Shown here one piece after another: positions 41,814 through 49,900 of a stretch of DNA of 64,000 nt. The notes beneath the pieces were generated by a model. That model saw only the letters and a program-made list of their open reading frames with translations, was not told the DNA's origin and ran no database searches. Both the position numbers and the translations under genes were made by a program. This stretch comes from Thalassospira lucentensis MCCC 1A00383 = DSM 14000 (lineage in GTDB: Bacteria > Pseudomonadota > Alphaproteobacteria > Rhodospirillales > Thalassospiraceae): assembly GCF_000421265.1 (NCBI RefSeq), contig NZ_ATWN01000007.1, forward strand, positions 1-64,000, read 5' to 3'. Within the stretch, counting starts at the first letter, position 1; each line of letters starts with the position of its first letter.

Positions 41814-42323
41814 ATGACTGATAAACCACGCATTGTTTCATCATCGCATCTGGTGTCAGAGCGTGCTGCTGAACTTTCCGAACTTGAGTTTGCCCTGATC
41901 CTGTCGGGCAATGCGTTTGATCGCTGGATGGTGCGCTGCATGCGTGCGGCTGGCATGCCTGATCTGTCAGTTCTCGATATTCTGGTTCTGCATAATGTCA
42001 ATTCACGCGAACGCGAAAAAAGCCTGTCGGAGGTTTGCTTTGTGCTTAATGTTGAAGACAGCCATCTGGTGAATTACGCGTTGAAGAAATTGCGCAAGCT
42101 TGGCCTTGTTGAAGGTAACAAGCGCGGTAAGGAAGTGCATTACGGCACGACACAGGATGGCCGTGCGATGTGCGAGAAATACCGCGAAGTGCGCGAAGCC
42201 TGCCTTGTCGAAACGTTCCAGCGTCTTGGCGTAAACAGTCAGGAAGTGGGCGATGTTGCCAAGACGCTGCGTGCAATTTCCGGTGTTTATGATCAGGCGT
42301 CGCGTGCGGCAAGTGCGATGTAA
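41814..42323 (+). CDS. winged-helix (MarR-like) transcriptional regulator
   Basis: 169 residues from ATG 41814, with AAAGGGGAACG upstream. The central part reads like a MarR winged helix: LSVLDILVLHNVNSREREKSLSEV, VEDSHLVNYALKKLRKLGLVEG (recognition region) and the wing NKRGKEVHYGTTQDGR, then a C-terminal helical dimerisation part. A longer frame from 41685 has no ribosome site. Its target is unknown; the neighbouring SDR gene, transcribed towards it, has a strong palindromic operator but could be under other control. Confidence 0.8.
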   Translation: MTDKPRIVSSSHLVSERAAELSELEFALILSGNAFDRWMVRCMRAAGMPDLSVLDILVLHNVNSREREKSLSEVCFVLNVEDSHLVNYALKKLRKLGLVEGNKRGKEVHYGTTQDGRAMCEKYREVREACLVETFQRLGVNSQEVGDVAKTLRAISGVYDQASRAASAM

Positions 42324-42340: not shown

Positions 42341-42385
42341 TAGGGTCAGGAGCCATTGAAACCAAATTAATGGGTCCTGACCCTA
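42341..42385. repeat. GGGTCAGGACCC-type inverted repeat between convergent genes
   Basis: 17-bp arms (42341-42357 and 42369-42385, one mismatch) with an 11-base loop form a long hairpin between the winged-helix gene and the SDR gene. The outer end, TAGGGTCAGGACCC read on the minus strand, begins with the stop codon of the SDR gene. The same motif caps other elements in this window. It may act as a bidirectional terminator. Confidence 0.75.
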
Positions 42386-43281: not shown

Positions 43282-43311
43282 TTGACAATTTGTCAGTAAA
43301 ATGTGATTAAT
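43282..43311 (+). promoter_or_regulatory. promoter of the TRAP operon with overlapping palindrome
   Basis: TTGACA (43282-43287) is followed after 18 bp by ATTAAT (43306-43311), about 75 bp before the dctP start. The palindrome TGACAATTTGTCA (43283-43295) overlaps the -35 box, a position suited to a repressor. Confidence 0.5.
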
Positions 43312-43387
43312 GTGTCGGGAGGATGCTTCGGAGTCTCGATACGCGCGATTCTGTATCGACTCCCAGTCACACAGGGAGACTTGAGCA

Positions 43388-44362
43388 ATGCTTAAAAAGG
43401 CACTTTCGACTGTCGCAATCGCGGCAATGACACTGTCCGCCGGTATGGCGGCTGCTGCTGAAAAATGGGATATGGCAACGCCGTATCCGGATGCGACTTT
43501 CCACACCCAGAACATTATTGAATTTGCCAAAGACGTGAATGACGCGTCCGGTGGCGAGCTGACCATTACCGTTCATTCGGGCGGTTCGCTGTTTAAACAT
43601 GCCGACATTAAACGGTCGGTTCAGCGCGGTCTGATCCCGATTGGTGAGACGCTGATTTCGCTTCTGGCCAATGAAAACCCGATCTACACCGTTGATGCGA
43701 TCCCGTTCCTGGCGACGTCTTATGACGATGCCAAGAAACTTTGGGAAGTATCGCGTTCGGGCATTGAAGCCGCCCTTGAAAAAGACGGTCTGAAAGTGCT
43801 GTATGCCGTTCCGTGGCCAGCACAGGGTCTTTATACCGCGAACCCGGTTGCCAAGGTCGAAGACCTCGAAGGTGTTAAATTCCGCGCTTATAACTCCACC
43901 ACGTCCCAGCTTGCCGATCTGACCGGCATGGTTGCAACGCAGGTTGAAGTGCCGGAAATCCCGACCGCCTTTGCCACCGGCATTGTTGAGGCAATGATCA
44001 CATCGCCATCAACCGGTGCCAATTCCAAGGCATGGGATTTTGTGTCGAACTTCTATGACGTTCAGGCATGGCTTCCGAAAAACATGGTTGTTGTGAATGC
44101 CAAGTCGTTTGACGCCCTGCCAGAAGCCGCACAGAAAGCGGTTATGGATGCGGCAGCCAAAGCCGAAACCCGCGGCTGGGAAATGAGCATGGCCGAAGCA
44201 GATGCCAAGAAGAAAATCCTGGCAGAAAACGGCATGAACGTTGCAGCACCGAGCGACGAGCTAAAAGCTGGCCTGTCCAAAGCAGGCGAAACCATGGTTG
44301 CCGATTGGCTTGAAGAAACCGGCGATGACGGTAAAGCCATCATCGACGCGTTCAAGAACTAA
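43388..44362 (+). CDS. dctP: TRAP transporter solute-binding protein DctP
   Basis: Periplasmic binding protein of a tripartite ATP-independent transporter, 324 residues. Signal peptide of about 23 residues (TVAIAAMTLSAGMAAAA), then EKWDMATPYPDATFHTQN, the family motif GGSLFKHADIKRSVQRGLIPIGE, LEGVKFRAYNSTTSQL with the usual ligand-contacting Arg, and AMITSPSTGANSKAWDF. TRAP systems use ion gradients to import organic acids and similar compounds. The operon also encodes DctQ, DctM and a fused oxoprolinase/hydantoinase, which hints at a cyclic amide as ligand. Between it and dctQ lie two small repeat elements. Confidence 0.93.
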   Translation: MLKKALSTVAIAAMTLSAGMAAAAEKWDMATPYPDATFHTQNIIEFAKDVNDASGGELTITVHSGGSLFKHADIKRSVQRGLIPIGETLISLLANENPIYTVDAIPFLATSYDDAKKLWEVSRSGIEAALEKDGLKVLYAVPWPAQGLYTANPVAKVEDLEGVKFRAYNSTTSQLADLTGMVATQVEVPEIPTAFATGIVEAMITSPSTGANSKAWDFVSNFYDVQAWLPKNMVVVNAKSFDALPEAAQKAVMDAAAKAETRGWEMSMAEADAKKKILAENGMNVAAPSDELKAGLSKAGETMVADWLEETGDDGKAIIDAFKN

Positions 44363-44430
44363 GGTTCTTGTTATTTCACGGGATCGGGCAGGCAAAGCGT
44401 TCTGTCCGATCCCGACACGCCCCACATTTC

Positions 44431-44695
44431 AGGGGCAGGACCCTTTAATATGATTGTCATGGCAACCTCAATATTTGCGAAATACAAGGAAAAGCTCGCA
44501 GAGCGGGTTGGCATCCCGGCCAAGAGGTTTGACGCGGGAGTTCGCAAATATTGAAGTTGTCCTTCGGATTGATCGGATTTGCACGGGCTACTTTGTCGCA
44601 AGGCATTGAAAGATAAATATCTTCCTGCTGCCTTGCTCCGCGTATCCGCACAAATCTGATCAACCATTGCAAACATATTAAAGGGTCCTGACCCT
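44431..44695. mobile_element. small non-autonomous element with 22-bp terminal inverted repeats
   Basis: A 265-bp segment bounded by 22-bp inverted repeats (44431-44452 and 44674-44695, one mismatch) that start AGGGGCAGGACCCTTTAATA. Inside, a further inverted pair (CTCAATATTTGCGAA near 44468 and TTCGCAAATATTGAAG near 44544) is present. No transposase is encoded. The outer motif GGGTCAGGACCC recurs at 42341-42385 and as partial copies at other gene ends. It lies 68 bp after dctP, in a 665-bp gap, and may weaken expression of the distal genes. Confidence 0.75.
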
Positions 44696-44761
44696 CATGT
44701 TACTGTCCGTGTAGAAAGCAAACCACCATCGCGATAACCCGCGGGCGGAAAGGGGACTGCT

Positions 44762-45031
44762 GTGCGTAGATTATCAGAGCCTGACACATTTTATCTGCCC
44801 CATTTTGCCGGAGAGATCCCTCTGTCCGGCAAGGAAAGGGCCGCAGAGCGTAGCGGCGCTACGGTCAAGGTGCTTGACGCTGCGGGGCAGAGGAATCTCT
44901 CGGCCCGAAGGGTTTGCTTTTGGCGGCGTTTAGCTTCGTTACACCGTTTGACCGATGCGCCGCATCGCTCTGCACGCTGTGCCTTGCCAAACGGCACGCC
45001 AAAAACAAACAAAATGGAGCAGATAAAATGA
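44762..45031 (+). other. read-through ORF from the displaced dctQ start, ending at the new start
   Basis: After GGAAAGGGGACTGCT a GTG at 44762 opens a frame of 89 codons (MRRLSEPDTFYL...) that runs through the whole repeat element and stops at TGA 45029-45031, overlapping the ATG of dctQ as ATGA. The well-placed ribosome site with no sensible product suggests this was the original dctQ initiation region, now cut off by the element. Translation of this frame would end exactly where dctQ begins, allowing reinitiation. The protein itself shows no family features. Confidence 0.55.
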
Positions 45032-45041
45032 GACAGGCTCT
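44776..45041. mobile_element. MITE-like element with 32-bp terminal inverted repeats
   Basis: A 266-bp segment whose ends (44776-44807 and 45010-45041) are inverted repeats matching at 29 of 32 positions; both ends begin AGAGCCTG read inward. The interior has smaller dyads (GTAGCGGCGCTAC; GCCGGA...TCCGGC) and no transposase. Its right repeat contains TGGAG and ATG, which serve as ribosome site and start codon of dctQ. No clear target-site duplication is visible at the immediate borders. Confidence 0.8.
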
Positions 45042-45540
45042 AAATTATTTATTCAAATTCAGTGCCGGGCTGGCAGCCTTTTTCCTGATTGCCATCGCAC
45101 TTTTGATTTTGGCCCAGTCGATTGGCCGTGTGCTTGGCATTGCTGTGCATGATGCCAATGAAATGGCCGGTTTTGCGCTTGCGGCGGGGACGTTTTTGGC
45201 GCTTGGCCCGGCATTCCGGGCCGGAACACACATCCGGGTTCAAATCGTGCTGTCGCACCTTAAGGGCGGGTTCCGTCGTGTGATGGAAACCATCACGCTG
45301 TGTGCGGCGTCCTTCCTTGGCGGGTATTTCGCATGGTGGGTGAGCGTTTTGGCCGAGGAAAGCTACTCATACGGCGATACCTCGCCTGGGGTTCTGGCCT
45401 TTCCGTTGTGGATACCGCAGGCCGCCATGGCCTTTGGGTTGATTGTTTTCACCATCGCAATGATCGAAGCACTGGTTGATACCGTGTGTGGTCGCGCGCC
45501 GGCCTTCGCCCGTGGCGAAGCCGTTGAGCTAAACGAGTAG
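45028..45540 (+). CDS. dctQ: TRAP transporter small permease DctQ
   Basis: Small membrane subunit of the TRAP transporter, 170 residues with four predicted helices (GLAAFFLIAIALLILAQSIG first; then EMAGFALAAGTFLALGPAF, a third, and AFGLIVFTIAMIEALVD). The segment GPAFRAGTHIRVQIVL is typical of the family. I start at ATG 45028 (MRQALNYLFKF), 8 bases after TGGAG. The first five codons and the ribosome site belong to the right terminal repeat of a MITE-like element, so the gene's 5' end has been rebuilt by insertion. dctM follows after 9 bp. Confidence 0.9.
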   Translation: MRQALNYLFKFSAGLAAFFLIAIALLILAQSIGRVLGIAVHDANEMAGFALAAGTFLALGPAFRAGTHIRVQIVLSHLKGGFRRVMETITLCAASFLGGYFAWWVSVLAEESYSYGDTSPGVLAFPLWIPQAAMAFGLIVFTIAMIEALVDTVCGRAPAFARGEAVELNE

Positions 45541-45549
45541 GGCACGGTC

Positions 45550-46851
45550 ATGGATGTACTTCAAATTGGCCTGATCCTGATGGGGCTGTTGTTCCTGTTT
45601 CTGGGGGCCGGGCTTTGGGTGGCATTGTCGCTGTTTGCGATTGGTGTGTTTGCGCTGGACTTCTTTACCAGTGCACAAACCGGCCCGATCATCGCGACAA
45701 CCGCGTGGTCCAGTCTTGCGACGTGGTCGTTGGCACCATTGCCGTTGTTTATCTGGATGGGCGAAATCCTGTTTCGGTCGCGGCTTTCCGAGGACATGTT
45801 TACAGGGTTGGCCCCGTGGTTGAACAAGCTTCCCGGGCGGCTGTTGCATGTCAATATTCTGGGGTGCGGTATCTTTGCCGCCGTGTCCGGGTCATCGGCG
45901 GCGACGGCTGCCACCATTGGCCGGATGTCGATCCCGGAATTGCGCAAACAGGGGTATCCCGACAAACTGATCCTTGGCACGCTTGCCGGGTCGGGCACGC
46001 TTGGCCTTTTGATCCCGCCATCGATCATTTTGATTGTTTATGGTGTGTCGGCGGAACTTTCGATTGCGCGCCTGTTTATTGCCGGTGTTTTGCCCGGTGC
46101 GATGCTTATTGTCCTGTTCATGAGCTTTGTCGGCATTTGGGCAACGGTCAATAAGGACAAGATGCCCGCAGCGGAACCGAGCATTCCGTTTGCTGATAAA
46201 ATCCGTGCATCGGGGCGGTTGATCCCGGTGATCACCCTGATTGCCGCGGTGATTGGATCGATTTACGGCGGGATTGCCACCCCGACCGAGGCGGCGGCAT
46301 TTGGTGTTGTCGGTGCGTTGATCCTTTCGGGGATTAGCGGGTCGTTAAGCCGTGAAAGCCTGATGGACGGGATTATGGGGGCCACGCGCACATCGTGCAT
46401 GATCTGCTTTATCCTTGCCGGTGCGGCGGTTTTGACCGTGGCGATGGGCTTTACCGGTATTCCGCGTGAGCTTGCGGCATGGATCGCGCAGATGGATTTG
46501 TCGCCCTATGCGTTGCTGGCCGCACTGACCGTGTTCTTTATCGTGCTGGGCTGCTTCCTTGACGGGATTTCGGTGGTGGTTTTGACCACATCGGTGATCC
46601 TGCCGATGGTGCAGGCCGCAGGGATCGATCTTTTGTGGTTTGGCATCTATGTGGTGCTGGTGGTTGAAATGTCGCAGATCACCCCGCCGGTTGGTTTCAA
46701 CCTTTTTGTTTTGCAGGGGCTGACAGGCAAGAACCTGTTTGCCATTGCGCTGGCTGCTTTGCCGTTTTTCTTCCTGCTGTTGTTTGCTGTGGTGCTGATT
46801 ACCGTTTTCCCGGAAATCGCCACATGGTTGCCACAGCAAATGAACGGCTGA
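45550..46851 (+). CDS. dctM: TRAP transporter large permease DctM
   Basis: Large channel-forming subunit of the TRAP transporter, 433 residues and about twelve transmembrane helices. Landmarks are VSGSSAATAATIGRMSIPEL near residue 115, GTLAGSGTLGLLIPPSIILIVYG, YGGIATPTEAAAFGVVGAL and the C-terminal EMSQITPPVGFNLFVLQG, all characteristic of DctM/SiaQM large subunits. It couples sodium or proton flow to uptake of the ligand presented by DctP. The ATG lies 9 bp after dctQ. The oxoprolinase-like gene follows after 65 bp. Confidence 0.95.
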   Translation: MDVLQIGLILMGLLFLFLGAGLWVALSLFAIGVFALDFFTSAQTGPIIATTAWSSLATWSLAPLPLFIWMGEILFRSRLSEDMFTGLAPWLNKLPGRLLHVNILGCGIFAAVSGSSAATAATIGRMSIPELRKQGYPDKLILGTLAGSGTLGLLIPPSIILIVYGVSAELSIARLFIAGVLPGAMLIVLFMSFVGIWATVNKDKMPAAEPSIPFADKIRASGRLIPVITLIAAVIGSIYGGIATPTEAAAFGVVGALILSGISGSLSRESLMDGIMGATRTSCMICFILAGAAVLTVAMGFTGIPRELAAWIAQMDLSPYALLAALTVFFIVLGCFLDGISVVVLTTSVILPMVQAAGIDLLWFGIYVVLVVEMSQITPPVGFNLFVLQGLTGKNLFAIALAALPFFFLLLFAVVLITVFPEIATWLPQQMNG

Positions 46852-46916
46852 CCGGTTTGAATATCTGATCTTTCGTATCGAATTTTTTGACTACAGATGC
46901 CCAAGGAGACAGCATC

Positions 46917-49900
46917 ATGGCTTCTCACGCCCAAAACGCCCCCGTTTCGCAGACCACCGGACAGCCAAAATGGCAGTTCTGGATTGATCGCGGCGGTACC
47001 TTTACCGATATCGTTGCCCGCAAACCGGACGGGTCGCTTGTCACGCACAAGTTGCTGTCGGAAAACCCGGAACGCTATGCCGATGCCGCCATTCAGGGCA
47101 TTCGTGAATTGCTTGATGTTCCGGCCGGTGAAAAAATCCCGGGTGAGAAAATCGAAGCGGTTAAAATGGGCACCACTGTTGCCACCAATGCGTTGCTTGA
47201 ACGCAAAGGCGACCGCACCGCACTGGTGACGACCAAGGGGTTCCGCGATTCATTGCGTCTGGCCTATCAGAACCGCCCGCGCCTGTTTGATCGCAACATC
47301 AAGCTGCCGGAAATGCTCTATGAAAGCGTGATTGAGGCCGATGGCCGCTTTGACGCGCAGGGTGAAGAACTTACCGCACTTGATCGCGATGCCCTGCGTA
47401 CCGAGTTGCAGGCTGTTTACGATGACGGCATTCGCGCCTGTGCCATCGTGTTTATGCATGGGTACCGTTATACCGCGCATGAAAATGCGGCGGCCGAGAT
47501 TGCACGCGATATCGGGTTTACTCAGGTATCGGTCAGCCATCAGGTCAGCCCGTTGATGAAACTGGTGTCGCGCGGCGATACCACGGTTGTTGATGCGTAT
47601 CTGTCGCCGATCCTGCGCCGCTATGTTGATCAGGTCGCAAGCGAGCTTGGCGGTGTGAAACTGATGTTCATGCAGTCGAATGGCGGGTTGACGGATGCCG
47701 CGAAGTTTCAGGGCAAGGACGCCATTTTGTCGGGCCCGGCGGGCGGTGTTGTCGGCATGGTGCGGACGGCCGAAATGGATGGTTTCAAGCAGGTCATCGG
47801 GTTTGACATGGGTGGGACGTCCACCGATGTTTCGCACTATGACGGCGAATATGAACGCGATTTTGAAACGCAGGTTGCCGGGGTGCGCATGCGCGCGCCG
47901 ATGATGAAAATCCATACGGTTGCCGCCGGTGGCGGGTCGATCCTGCATTTTGATGGCGCGCGTTTCCGCGTTGGTCCCGACAGTGCCGGGGCAAATCCGG
48001 GACCAGCGGCCTATCGCCGCGGTGGGCCACTTGCGGTGACCGACATCAACGTCATGCTGGGCAAGGTTCAGCCGGAATTCTTCCCCAATGTGTTTGGCCC
48101 CGAGGGCAATGAGCCGCTTGACGCCGATGCGGTGCGCGCCGGGTTTGAGGCCATGGCCGCCAAGATCAAGGACAGCACCGGACAGGTTCGTACCCCCGAA
48201 GATGTCGCCGAAGGGTTCCTTCGCATTGCGGTGGAAAACATGGCCAATGCGATCAAGCAAATTTCGGTTCAGCGCGGCTATGACGTCACGGATTACATCC
48301 TGCAGTGCTTTGGCGGGGCCGGGGGACAGCATGCCTGTCAGGTGGCCGATACACTTGGCATGACCAAGGTGTTTGTCCATCCGTTTGCCGGTGTTTTGTC
48401 AGCCTATGGCATGGGGCTTGCCGACATTCGGGCGATGCGCGAACAGGCGGTTGAGGCCAAGCTTGAAAGTGGTGCATTGGCCGGTCTTGATCAGCAGCTT
48501 GATGTGTTGGCCGCAGACGCACGCGGCGAATTGCACGAACAGGGCATTACGGATGCCAAGATCAAGATGCTCAAACGGTTGCATCTGCGTTATGACGGTA
48601 CGGATACGCCGCTTATCGTTGATTTTGGCGATGTTGATGCGATCAAAGGTCAGTTCGAAGAACAGCACAAACAGCGTTACGGCTTTGTCATGAGTGAAAA
48701 ACCGCTGGTGGTTGAGGCGGTTGCGGTTGAGGCAGTTGGCGAAACCCAGAGCCTGCCTGACGCCGAAGCCAAGGCAGACAACACCGATGGTGTCGCCCCG
48801 GATGCGTTGGCGACCCGTGCGGTGGTGTTTGATGGCACATCGGAAGACACGCCGTTCTATAAACGCGAAGACATGAAACCGGGGGCGACCGTGCGTGGCC
48901 CCGCCGTGATTGTCGAGCCGGTTGGCACCACCGTGATTGATCCGGGCTGGGAAGCCAAGGTCAATGCGCGCGATCATTTGGTTCTGACCCGTGTTGTGGC
49001 GATGAAACGGTCCGAGGCGATTGGCACACAGGCCGATCCAGTGATGCTTGAGGTGTTCAATAATCTGTTCATGAACATTGCCGAGCAGATGGGCGTGACC
49101 CTGGCCAACACGTCATACTCGGTCAACATCAAGGAACGTCTTGATTTCTCCTGTGCGCTGTTTGATCAGGAAGGCCTTCTGATTGCCAATGCGCCGCATA
49201 TGCCGGTCCATCTGGGATCGATGGGGGAATCGGTTCAGGCGGTCATGCGCAATAATGTCGGCAGCATGAAGGCTGGCGATGTTTATATGCTCAATGATCC
49301 GTATAACGGCGGCACGCATTTGCCCGACATCACCCTGATCACCCCGGTGTTTGGCGATGATGGCAAGGATATCCTGTTCTATGTCGCGTCACGTGGGCAC
49401 CATGCCGATGTTGGCGGGATCACGCCGGGCTCGATGGCGCCAAATTCCCGCATTCTTGAAGAAGAAGGTGTCTTGATTGACAACTTCAAACTGGTTGATC
49501 AGGGCAAGTTTGATGAACCGGGCCTGACGGGCTTGCTTGAGGGGGCGAAATATCCGGCACGTAACCCCTATCAAAATATTGCCGATTTGCGCGCGCAGAT
49601 TGCGGCCAATGAAAAGGGTGTGCAGGAACTGCGCAAGATGGTTGATCACTTTGGCCTTGAAGTTGTGCATGCCTATATGGGCCATGTGCAGGACAACGCC
49701 GAAGAAAGCGTACGGCGCGTGATAGATAATCTTGAAGGTGGCGAGTTCTCCTATGAAATGGATAATGGCGCGGTCGTAAAGGCCAAGGTCACCATCCATA
49801 AGGAAACCCGATCCGCCACGGTTGATTTCACCGGCACATCCGATCAGCTTGATAACAACTTCAATGCGCCGTCGGCGGTGACCCGGGCAGCGGTCCTTTA

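Follow-up and report, generated by a model that had tools for sequence, protein, structure and literature searches.

How is a gene translated after a mobile repeat has come to lie across its first codons? The question is raised by dctQ of Thalassospira lucentensis MCCC 1A00383, located in a stretch of 64,000 nucleotides of contig NZ_ATWN01000007.1 that was analysed at full length (the window). The gene is part of a TRAP transporter operon with the order dctP (43388–44362), dctQ and dctM (45550–46851), and a hydantoinase/oxoprolinase-type gene comes after dctM. The dctQ product matched PF04290 (DctQ, TRAP small permease) with an E-value of 8.6e-20 over residues 23–154, which passed the cut-off. 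The initial annotation of the window had claimed that an insertion broke the native start of this gene and supplied a new ribosome site and ATG. The features on which this claim turns are listed in Table 1.

Table 1. Features at the dctQ insertion, in window coordinates.
Feature	Position	Strand	Basis
MITE-like element, 264 bp, structured, multicopy	44777..45040	+	Copies; covarying fold
Left terminal inverted repeat	44776..44807	+	Inverted-repeat search
Right terminal inverted repeat, bearing the new start signals	45010..45041	+	Inverted-repeat search
Native dctQ ribosome site GGAAAGGGG, now orphaned	44747..44755	+	Same or very similar in 27/27 element-free orthologues
Native dctQ start GTG, now opening the leader frame	44762..44764	+	Start in 27/27 element-free orthologues
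Leader frame, 89 codons (5 native, then element), stop TGA	44762..45031	+	ORF; open in T. lohafexi too
Target TA, left duplicate (CA in the window, TA in T. lohafexi)	44775..44776	+	Comparison
Right copy of the target TA, bases 2–3 of native codon 5	45041..45042	+	Comparison
GGAG, putative new ribosome site, 8 nt ahead of the ATG	45016..45019	+	Sequence
Putative new dctQ start ATG within the element	45028..45030	+	Native frame restored, N-terminal length equal
dctQ, TRAP transporter small membrane subunit, 170 aa	45028..45540	+	PF04290

The arms of the dctQ element are 32 nt long and complementary at 29 of 32 positions (91%). A 32-nt arm with at most three mismatches was found at two places only in the window and in 0 of 100 shuffled windows. 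A chance inverted repeat was rejected, since none arose in the shuffled windows and the element has multiple genomic copies. The exact 32-nt arm sequence was found only in the dctQ insertions of the window strain (G000) and of T. lohafexi (G005), with four matches at three mismatches. The element had been described as 266 bp long with 29/32-matching repeats; the repeats stood, and the length was corrected to 264 bp by comparison with T. lohafexi and the other copies, as 266 took in one base of each flanking TA. The orphaned GGAAAGGGG and the GTG lie where they had been reported. The 89-codon leader frame was likewise seen as described, its TGA (45029–45031) overlapping the ATG (45028–45030) as ATGA, and the TGGAG noticed ahead of this ATG is present in the right repeat (45015–45019). 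The right arm at dctQ reads GGAG-CAGATAAA-ATG-AGA-CAG-GCT-C, and the duplicated TA then finishes a CTA codon.

Orthologues of dctQ were found in all 29 genomes of the genus, and all 29 were compared in the same orientation. The element lies at dctQ in two of them, the window strain and T. lohafexi, and the latter carries the same insertion with TA intact on both sides. In all 27 element-free orthologues a GTG stands where the window has 44762, closely preceded by a GGAAAGGGG-like site, and the N-termini follow the pattern V(M)R[RK][SLI]L[ND].LF (27/27). The codon hit by the insertion is the fifth, a Leu codon, and the nearest relative (L023) has TTA TTA as codons 4–5. The new N-terminus is MRQALNYLF compared with an inferred native MRRLLNYLF, of unchanged length. 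No relative free of the repeats shares the MRQALNYLF start. The comparison with the 27 element-free orthologues supported the claim of a native start broken, and a new ribosome site and ATG supplied, by the insertion. The right arms at dctQ are identical in the window strain and T. lohafexi, which carries little weight at a divergence of ~1.5%.

The initial annotation had named the absence of other genomic copies as a ground against its claim, but copies were found both in the same genome and across the genus. The genome of the window strain contains five further long copies and two partial ones (self and arm-to-arm matches excluded), and there were 147 matches in 26 of the 29 genomes of the genus (self and arm matches included). 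Of these matches 116 were examined, the 31 omitted being weaker (some >200 bp), secondary or arm matches. Both arms were found in 107 of the 116 examined copies, with borders sought within 30 nt and a match of 19/26 or better, while the second arm was missing in 9. The length was 263–266 bp in 91 of the 107 copies. When the two copies outside 258–269 bp were dropped, 105 of regular length were left, representing 92 distinct sites, as 13 of the 105 repeat a site in another genome. TA flanked the copies on both sides in 68 of 107 cases, on one side in 31 and on neither in 8, as counted with a border-placing script that favoured TA. Empty target sites were observed in relatives. The family has the features of a MITE: it is short, lacks a transposase frame, and shows terminal inverted repeats, a target-site duplication and dispersed copies.

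The 89-codon frame of the dctQ element gave no match in searches of Pfam and NCBIfam. In addition, the 33 invariant columns of the family fall 11, 8 and 14 on positions 1, 2 and 3 of the leader frame (counted by eye), and a coding insert was rejected on these two grounds. An Rfam scan of 43300–47000 at E ≤1 gave two matches far below the gathering score, neither of them within the element, which was accordingly not assigned to a known RNA family. Among the plasmids searched there was one partial copy, in T. marina. A full-length relative with 68% identity (L322) is found TA-flanked in a genome of another family of the order (G053), and one of its arms also reads AAATGCAAAAGGCTTTA. Two copies (L079 and L150) appear to lie inside coding regions, well into the gene, as judged by coding potential only.

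The parentage of the family was searched among transposases. PF13358, which we take to be an IS630-type transposase, had no match in the window genome and was present in 6 of the 29 genomes searched (its own included), and an IS630/Tc1-mariner-type parent within that genome was rejected. Transposases with PF13340, presumably of the IS427 group of IS5 family insertion sequences, occur in 14 of the 29 genomes, the window genome among them. Of 13 PF13340 loci compared, five show long inverted ends, of three kinds, that start with TA-GG[GC]; the resemblance to the ends of the dctQ element is only partial.

The core of the family is well conserved, and the arms vary in sequence yet keep pairing. 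Among 42 diverse copies, 63 of 90 consensus pairs showed compensatory change. The covariation score was 0.377 compared with 0.147 in shuffles, with 0 of 500 as high, a score that is inflated by related sequences. When the partners were slid by 1–3 columns, the paired cells fell from 94.8% to 37–42%. Moreover, the pairing of the arms is also kept over the 92 distinct sites. Variable but covarying arms around a conserved core point to selection on the folded strand.

The start signals of the arm are not confined to dctQ. The 214 ends of the 107 copies were inspected for the triplet 13 bases from the end, with shared sites counted separately, and the triplet was AGG in 58, ATG in 52 and ACG in 43. 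The frame of the ATG runs at least 60 codons into the flank in 19 of the 52 ATG ends. The remaining two frames do so in 7 and 2. In the 162 non-ATG ends, the same three frames did so in 32, 29 and 15. The long flank frames were put through a Pfam scan, and among the 92 distinct sites four further genes with the insertion in their first codons emerged. The flank encodes a methyltransferase at L055 (genome G004; PrmA, 23.0 bits, barely over the cut-off), a sulphur transporter at L084 (G024; PF04143, E 2e-32) and a chorismate mutase at L125 (G015; PF01817, E 2e-14). The fourth protein, at L064 (G021), matched no family and was called exported from its signal-peptide-like start.

The relatives of these genes indicate which codon was split in each case. 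It is codon 2 in the methyltransferase gene (native start ATG CTA), codon 3 in the chorismate mutase gene (ATG GCG TTA), codon 6 in the sulphur transporter gene (ATG TCA GAA ACG ACA CTA) and codon 8 in the exported protein gene (ATG AAT TTG CGT TCC CGC TTT TCA), the element following the last base given. At all four genes the arm provides a Shine-Dalgarno (SD)-like site and an in-frame ATG, which restores the frame with Met-x-x-Ala-Leu each time. The SD of the exported protein gene is weak (GGTG). Neither copy of the target TA is intact at this gene, and only the left one is intact at the chorismate mutase gene. Judged from the element-free relatives, start replacement has arisen independently in other genes as well.

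A sixth site concerns the ribosome site. The gene at L006/L132, in the window strain and T. lohafexi, encodes a CpoB/YbgF-like protein in which TolA_bind_tri and TPR were matched. The element-free relatives G011 and G014 read AAAGGAC-CTGATA-ATG-ATC here. In the window strain, T. lohafexi and a third species (G008), the same insertion parts the native ribosome site from its ATG, and the arm gives GGAG-N8-ATG in frame. Initiation at cpoB may occur at the old, downstream ATG instead of the arm ATG. In G008 the copy has lost ~80 bp of its core. Its last 28 bases, which hold the GGAG and ATG, differ from those of the window strain at one position, and about 10 of 28 positions differ in the left arm (by eye). 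This is the best sign that an arm has been retained for the start signal in it. Between the window strain and T. lohafexi, the part of cpoB that was compared differs at 14 codons, with 6 silent and 8 protein-changing differences, which indicates that this stretch is not strongly constrained.

The explanation that best fits these observations, and which we hold with considerable confidence, is that a TA-targeting, non-autonomous MITE entered codon 5 of dctQ and cut off the native start, that DctQ is now made from the ATG of the element, and that insertions providing an in-frame start were kept. The 264-bp structured MITE would have entered the fifth codon (TTA) in an ancestor shared by T. lohafexi and the window strain, severing the native SD and GTG from the gene. 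By chance, the sequence of the right inverted repeat is GGAG-N8-ATG-NNN-NNN-GCT-Y, to which the duplicated TA would add the last two bases of a Leu codon. An NTA codon, together with this arm facing the gene, would then restore the frame and give the N-terminus Met-x-x-Ala-Leu. We infer that the start used at dctQ is this ATG, giving an N-terminus of unchanged length. Selection would keep first-codon insertions mainly when the gene-facing arm bears an in-frame start.

How the new start would be reached depends on the RNA fold. The predicted fold of the dctQ transcript has a z of −7.3 relative to shuffles (none of 100 reached so low a value); in it the arms pair and the new ATG lies within their stem. 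The computed probability that this ATG is unpaired was 0.003 alone and 0.93 with the leader region held open. As the full-length fold hides the ATG, initiation there would be hindered without coupling. The corresponding values, alone and with the leader held open, were 0.001 and 0.99 at the chorismate mutase gene, 0.001 and 0.39 at the methyltransferase gene, 0.34 and 0.62 at the exported protein gene, 0.001 and 0.53 at the sulphur transporter gene, and 0.006 and 0.36 at cpoB. The leader frame meets the new ATG as ATGA (dctQ), TGATG (chorismate mutase) and TAAATG (exported protein), and with a 16-nt overlap at the methyltransferase gene. It stops after 18 element codons at the sulphur transporter gene, and none runs through at cpoB. 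Of the 13 other ends that face right and have the ATG, 9 have a frame running through and 6 a frame ending near the ATG, a base rate too high for the overlap at dctQ to serve as proof of selection.

The initial annotation had also proposed that the insertion preserved translational coupling through a stop-restart, which is plausible. The predictions above bear on such coupling as a stronger form of the preferred explanation, and both can hold. Here the new SD and ATG, enclosed in the arm-to-arm stem, would be used only by ribosomes that, having entered at the old GTG and translated the 89 leader codons, open up the stem and begin again at ATGA. The pairing of the arms in the dctQ transcript, the covariation of the stem across the family, the increased exposure of the ATG when the leader is opened (most marked at dctQ and chorismate mutase) and the leader frames ending at the new ATG in four sites are consistent with this reading. 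However, the ATGs of the sulphur transporter gene and cpoB are predicted to be hidden too, although these sites have no through-running leader, and an open frame is common in right-facing ATG copies anyway. Moreover, the SD of dctQ is mostly paired in a local hairpin even with the leader held open (0.05). Since a through-running leader is absent at two sites and run-through is frequent elsewhere, we consider the chances of essential coupling evenly balanced. An extension of this idea, which we put forward as a tentative and rather doubtful one, is that members of the family serve as portable start modules with coupling built in, turning direct initiation into a leader-dependent restart, the opening of the stem exposing the SD and ATG of the element. 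If this were true, the way in which chromosomal genes of the genus begin translation would have been repeatedly rewired, and leader and stem would have become a new control point.

A rival reading is that dctQ was damaged by the insertion, yields little DctQ, if any, and is left to drift. The strong structure that covers the start is in keeping with such damage, as is the presence of a second element upstream, in the spacer. Nevertheless, the frame, SD and ATG are intact in both species and the DctQ domain is present. In addition, dctQ differs between the two species with the insertion at 7 of 171 codons, of which 6 differences are synonymous and 1 is amino-acid-changing, in a comparison with 128 synonymous and 382 non-synonymous sites. 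This is a pattern that continuing purifying selection would show, and we regard a damaged dctQ as unlikely.

Retention of the favourable insertions was evaluated in a survey of joined flanks that ignored the ATG and covered the 214 ends, with copies sharing sites unmerged. The joined frame had to span at least 70 codons with a coding score of at least 0.1 and a start codon no more than 33 nt ahead of the junction. As genes are recognised in this survey by their open frame and coding score, short or atypical ones may escape it. It returned 17 rows, 6 of them (5 sites) first-codon insertions and 11 (9 sites) other cases. The five first-codon sites are dctQ and the four genes described above, and all five have the in-frame arm ATG. 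At the nine other sites the native start is elsewhere or the element is intergenic. The element lies upstream of the native start at L062 and L130, according to relatives. L078 has an intact empty site in relatives and was taken to be the distal end of an oppositely oriented gene, and at L083 homology with relatives begins only ~26 nt inside. L059/L081, L063/L089, L065 and L110 have their own SD and start codon downstream, and L073 faces a terminator-like hairpin, as read from the flanks or the sequence without relatives.

Of the 178 other ends at distinct sites, 33 had an ATG and 15 had an ATG together with a 4-nt SD match, compared with all six candidates, cpoB included, which had both. At a rate of 0.185, five of five would have a probability of ~2e-4. 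Because the ATG occurs in only 33 of the 178 other ends, survivorship, that is, the retention of insertions that rebuilt a start, is the likely cause. ATG is a minority state among the arm triplets, which indicates that the element was not built as a start cassette. The same figures bear on the idea that outward-facing start signals arose in the family adaptively, rendering its insertions harmless. The recurrence in six genes would suit it, as would the outward ATG that the opposite arm also reads in five of the six candidate copies, cpoB included (by eye). But the base that makes the ATG varies widely among copies, and the combination with an SD is rare in the other ends; this adaptation was rejected as very unlikely. 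It is hardly credible that translation begins at TTG 44914 or farther off and yields DctQ as an extended fusion. The frame is indeed open through the right half of the element and for 208 aa from this TTG, but no ribosome site was noticed before it on inspection by eye, and ATG 45028 restores the native length exactly.

Several known repeats resemble the Thalassospira element in part. MITEAba12 of Acinetobacter is likewise short and non-autonomous, with inverted repeats, a target duplication and many copies, and its start codons near the ends could, depending on the site, allow fusion with neighbouring coding sequences, according to PMC6382973. In that account the start role is a possibility seen in the consensus, the duplications are 9 bp and the predicted structure is weak. 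In contrast, the Thalassospira element shows actual start replacement in five genes by comparison with element-free relatives, a TA duplication and a strong, covarying fold. The ERIC, Yersinia and Correia (NEMIS) repeats (PMC2229807) are also small, with TA end motifs, RNA folding and some frames fused to genes. Their fusions add an element-coded peptide in frame, whereas the Thalassospira element leaves the long frame behind and contributes only 4–5 codons from its arm. The Rickettsia palindromic elements are palindromic repeats tolerated within genes as well, and PMC10969869 presents them as in-frame translational fusions, unlike the Thalassospira element, which replaces the start. An element of the Rickettsia type was rejected for dctQ, as the frame through the element ends at the TGA and DctQ would restart.

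It is already known that MITE frames can be fused to genes and that RNA is processed inside MITE transcripts (PMC2229807, PMC10969869). A literature search on Thalassospira MITEs found none, and no description of recurrent native-start replacement by a repeat arm was found in the mostly open-access literature, the remark on MITEAba12 being the nearest. That mobile repeats contribute promoters, RNA cleavage sites and peptide fusions is known. The Thalassospira repeat appears to bring, recurrently, a complete translation start, swapping the first codons of conserved genes and leaving the rest unchanged. This natural set of independent events could be used to test what ribosomes need at a start, how much N-terminal change is tolerated and whether insertions can be rescued by stop-restart coupling. 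For annotation the case is a warning: upstream, a spurious frame runs from the orphaned native start, and the true start is likely to lie inside the repeat.

The window carries further repeats. The second MITE-like element, unrelated to the first, occupies 44431–44695 in the spacer between dctP and dctQ. It has 32-nt arms (88%), and its right end, read outward, is ...GGGTCCTGACCCT. It is absent from T. lohafexi and has two copies of 83% identity on contig C10. A PF13340 insertion sequence of the genus (L304), with the ends TTAGGGTCAGGACYC, is a possible parent of this second element, judging from the ends. A single 32-nt arm, 88% like that of the second element, lies at 42353–42384, directly after a winged-helix regulator gene that ends at 42323. 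Right behind dctP there is a hairpin at 44379–44414 with 13-nt arms. The relatives whose spacer was compared have similar stem-loops after dctP with changed letters, and the hairpin is perhaps an attenuator of the operon.
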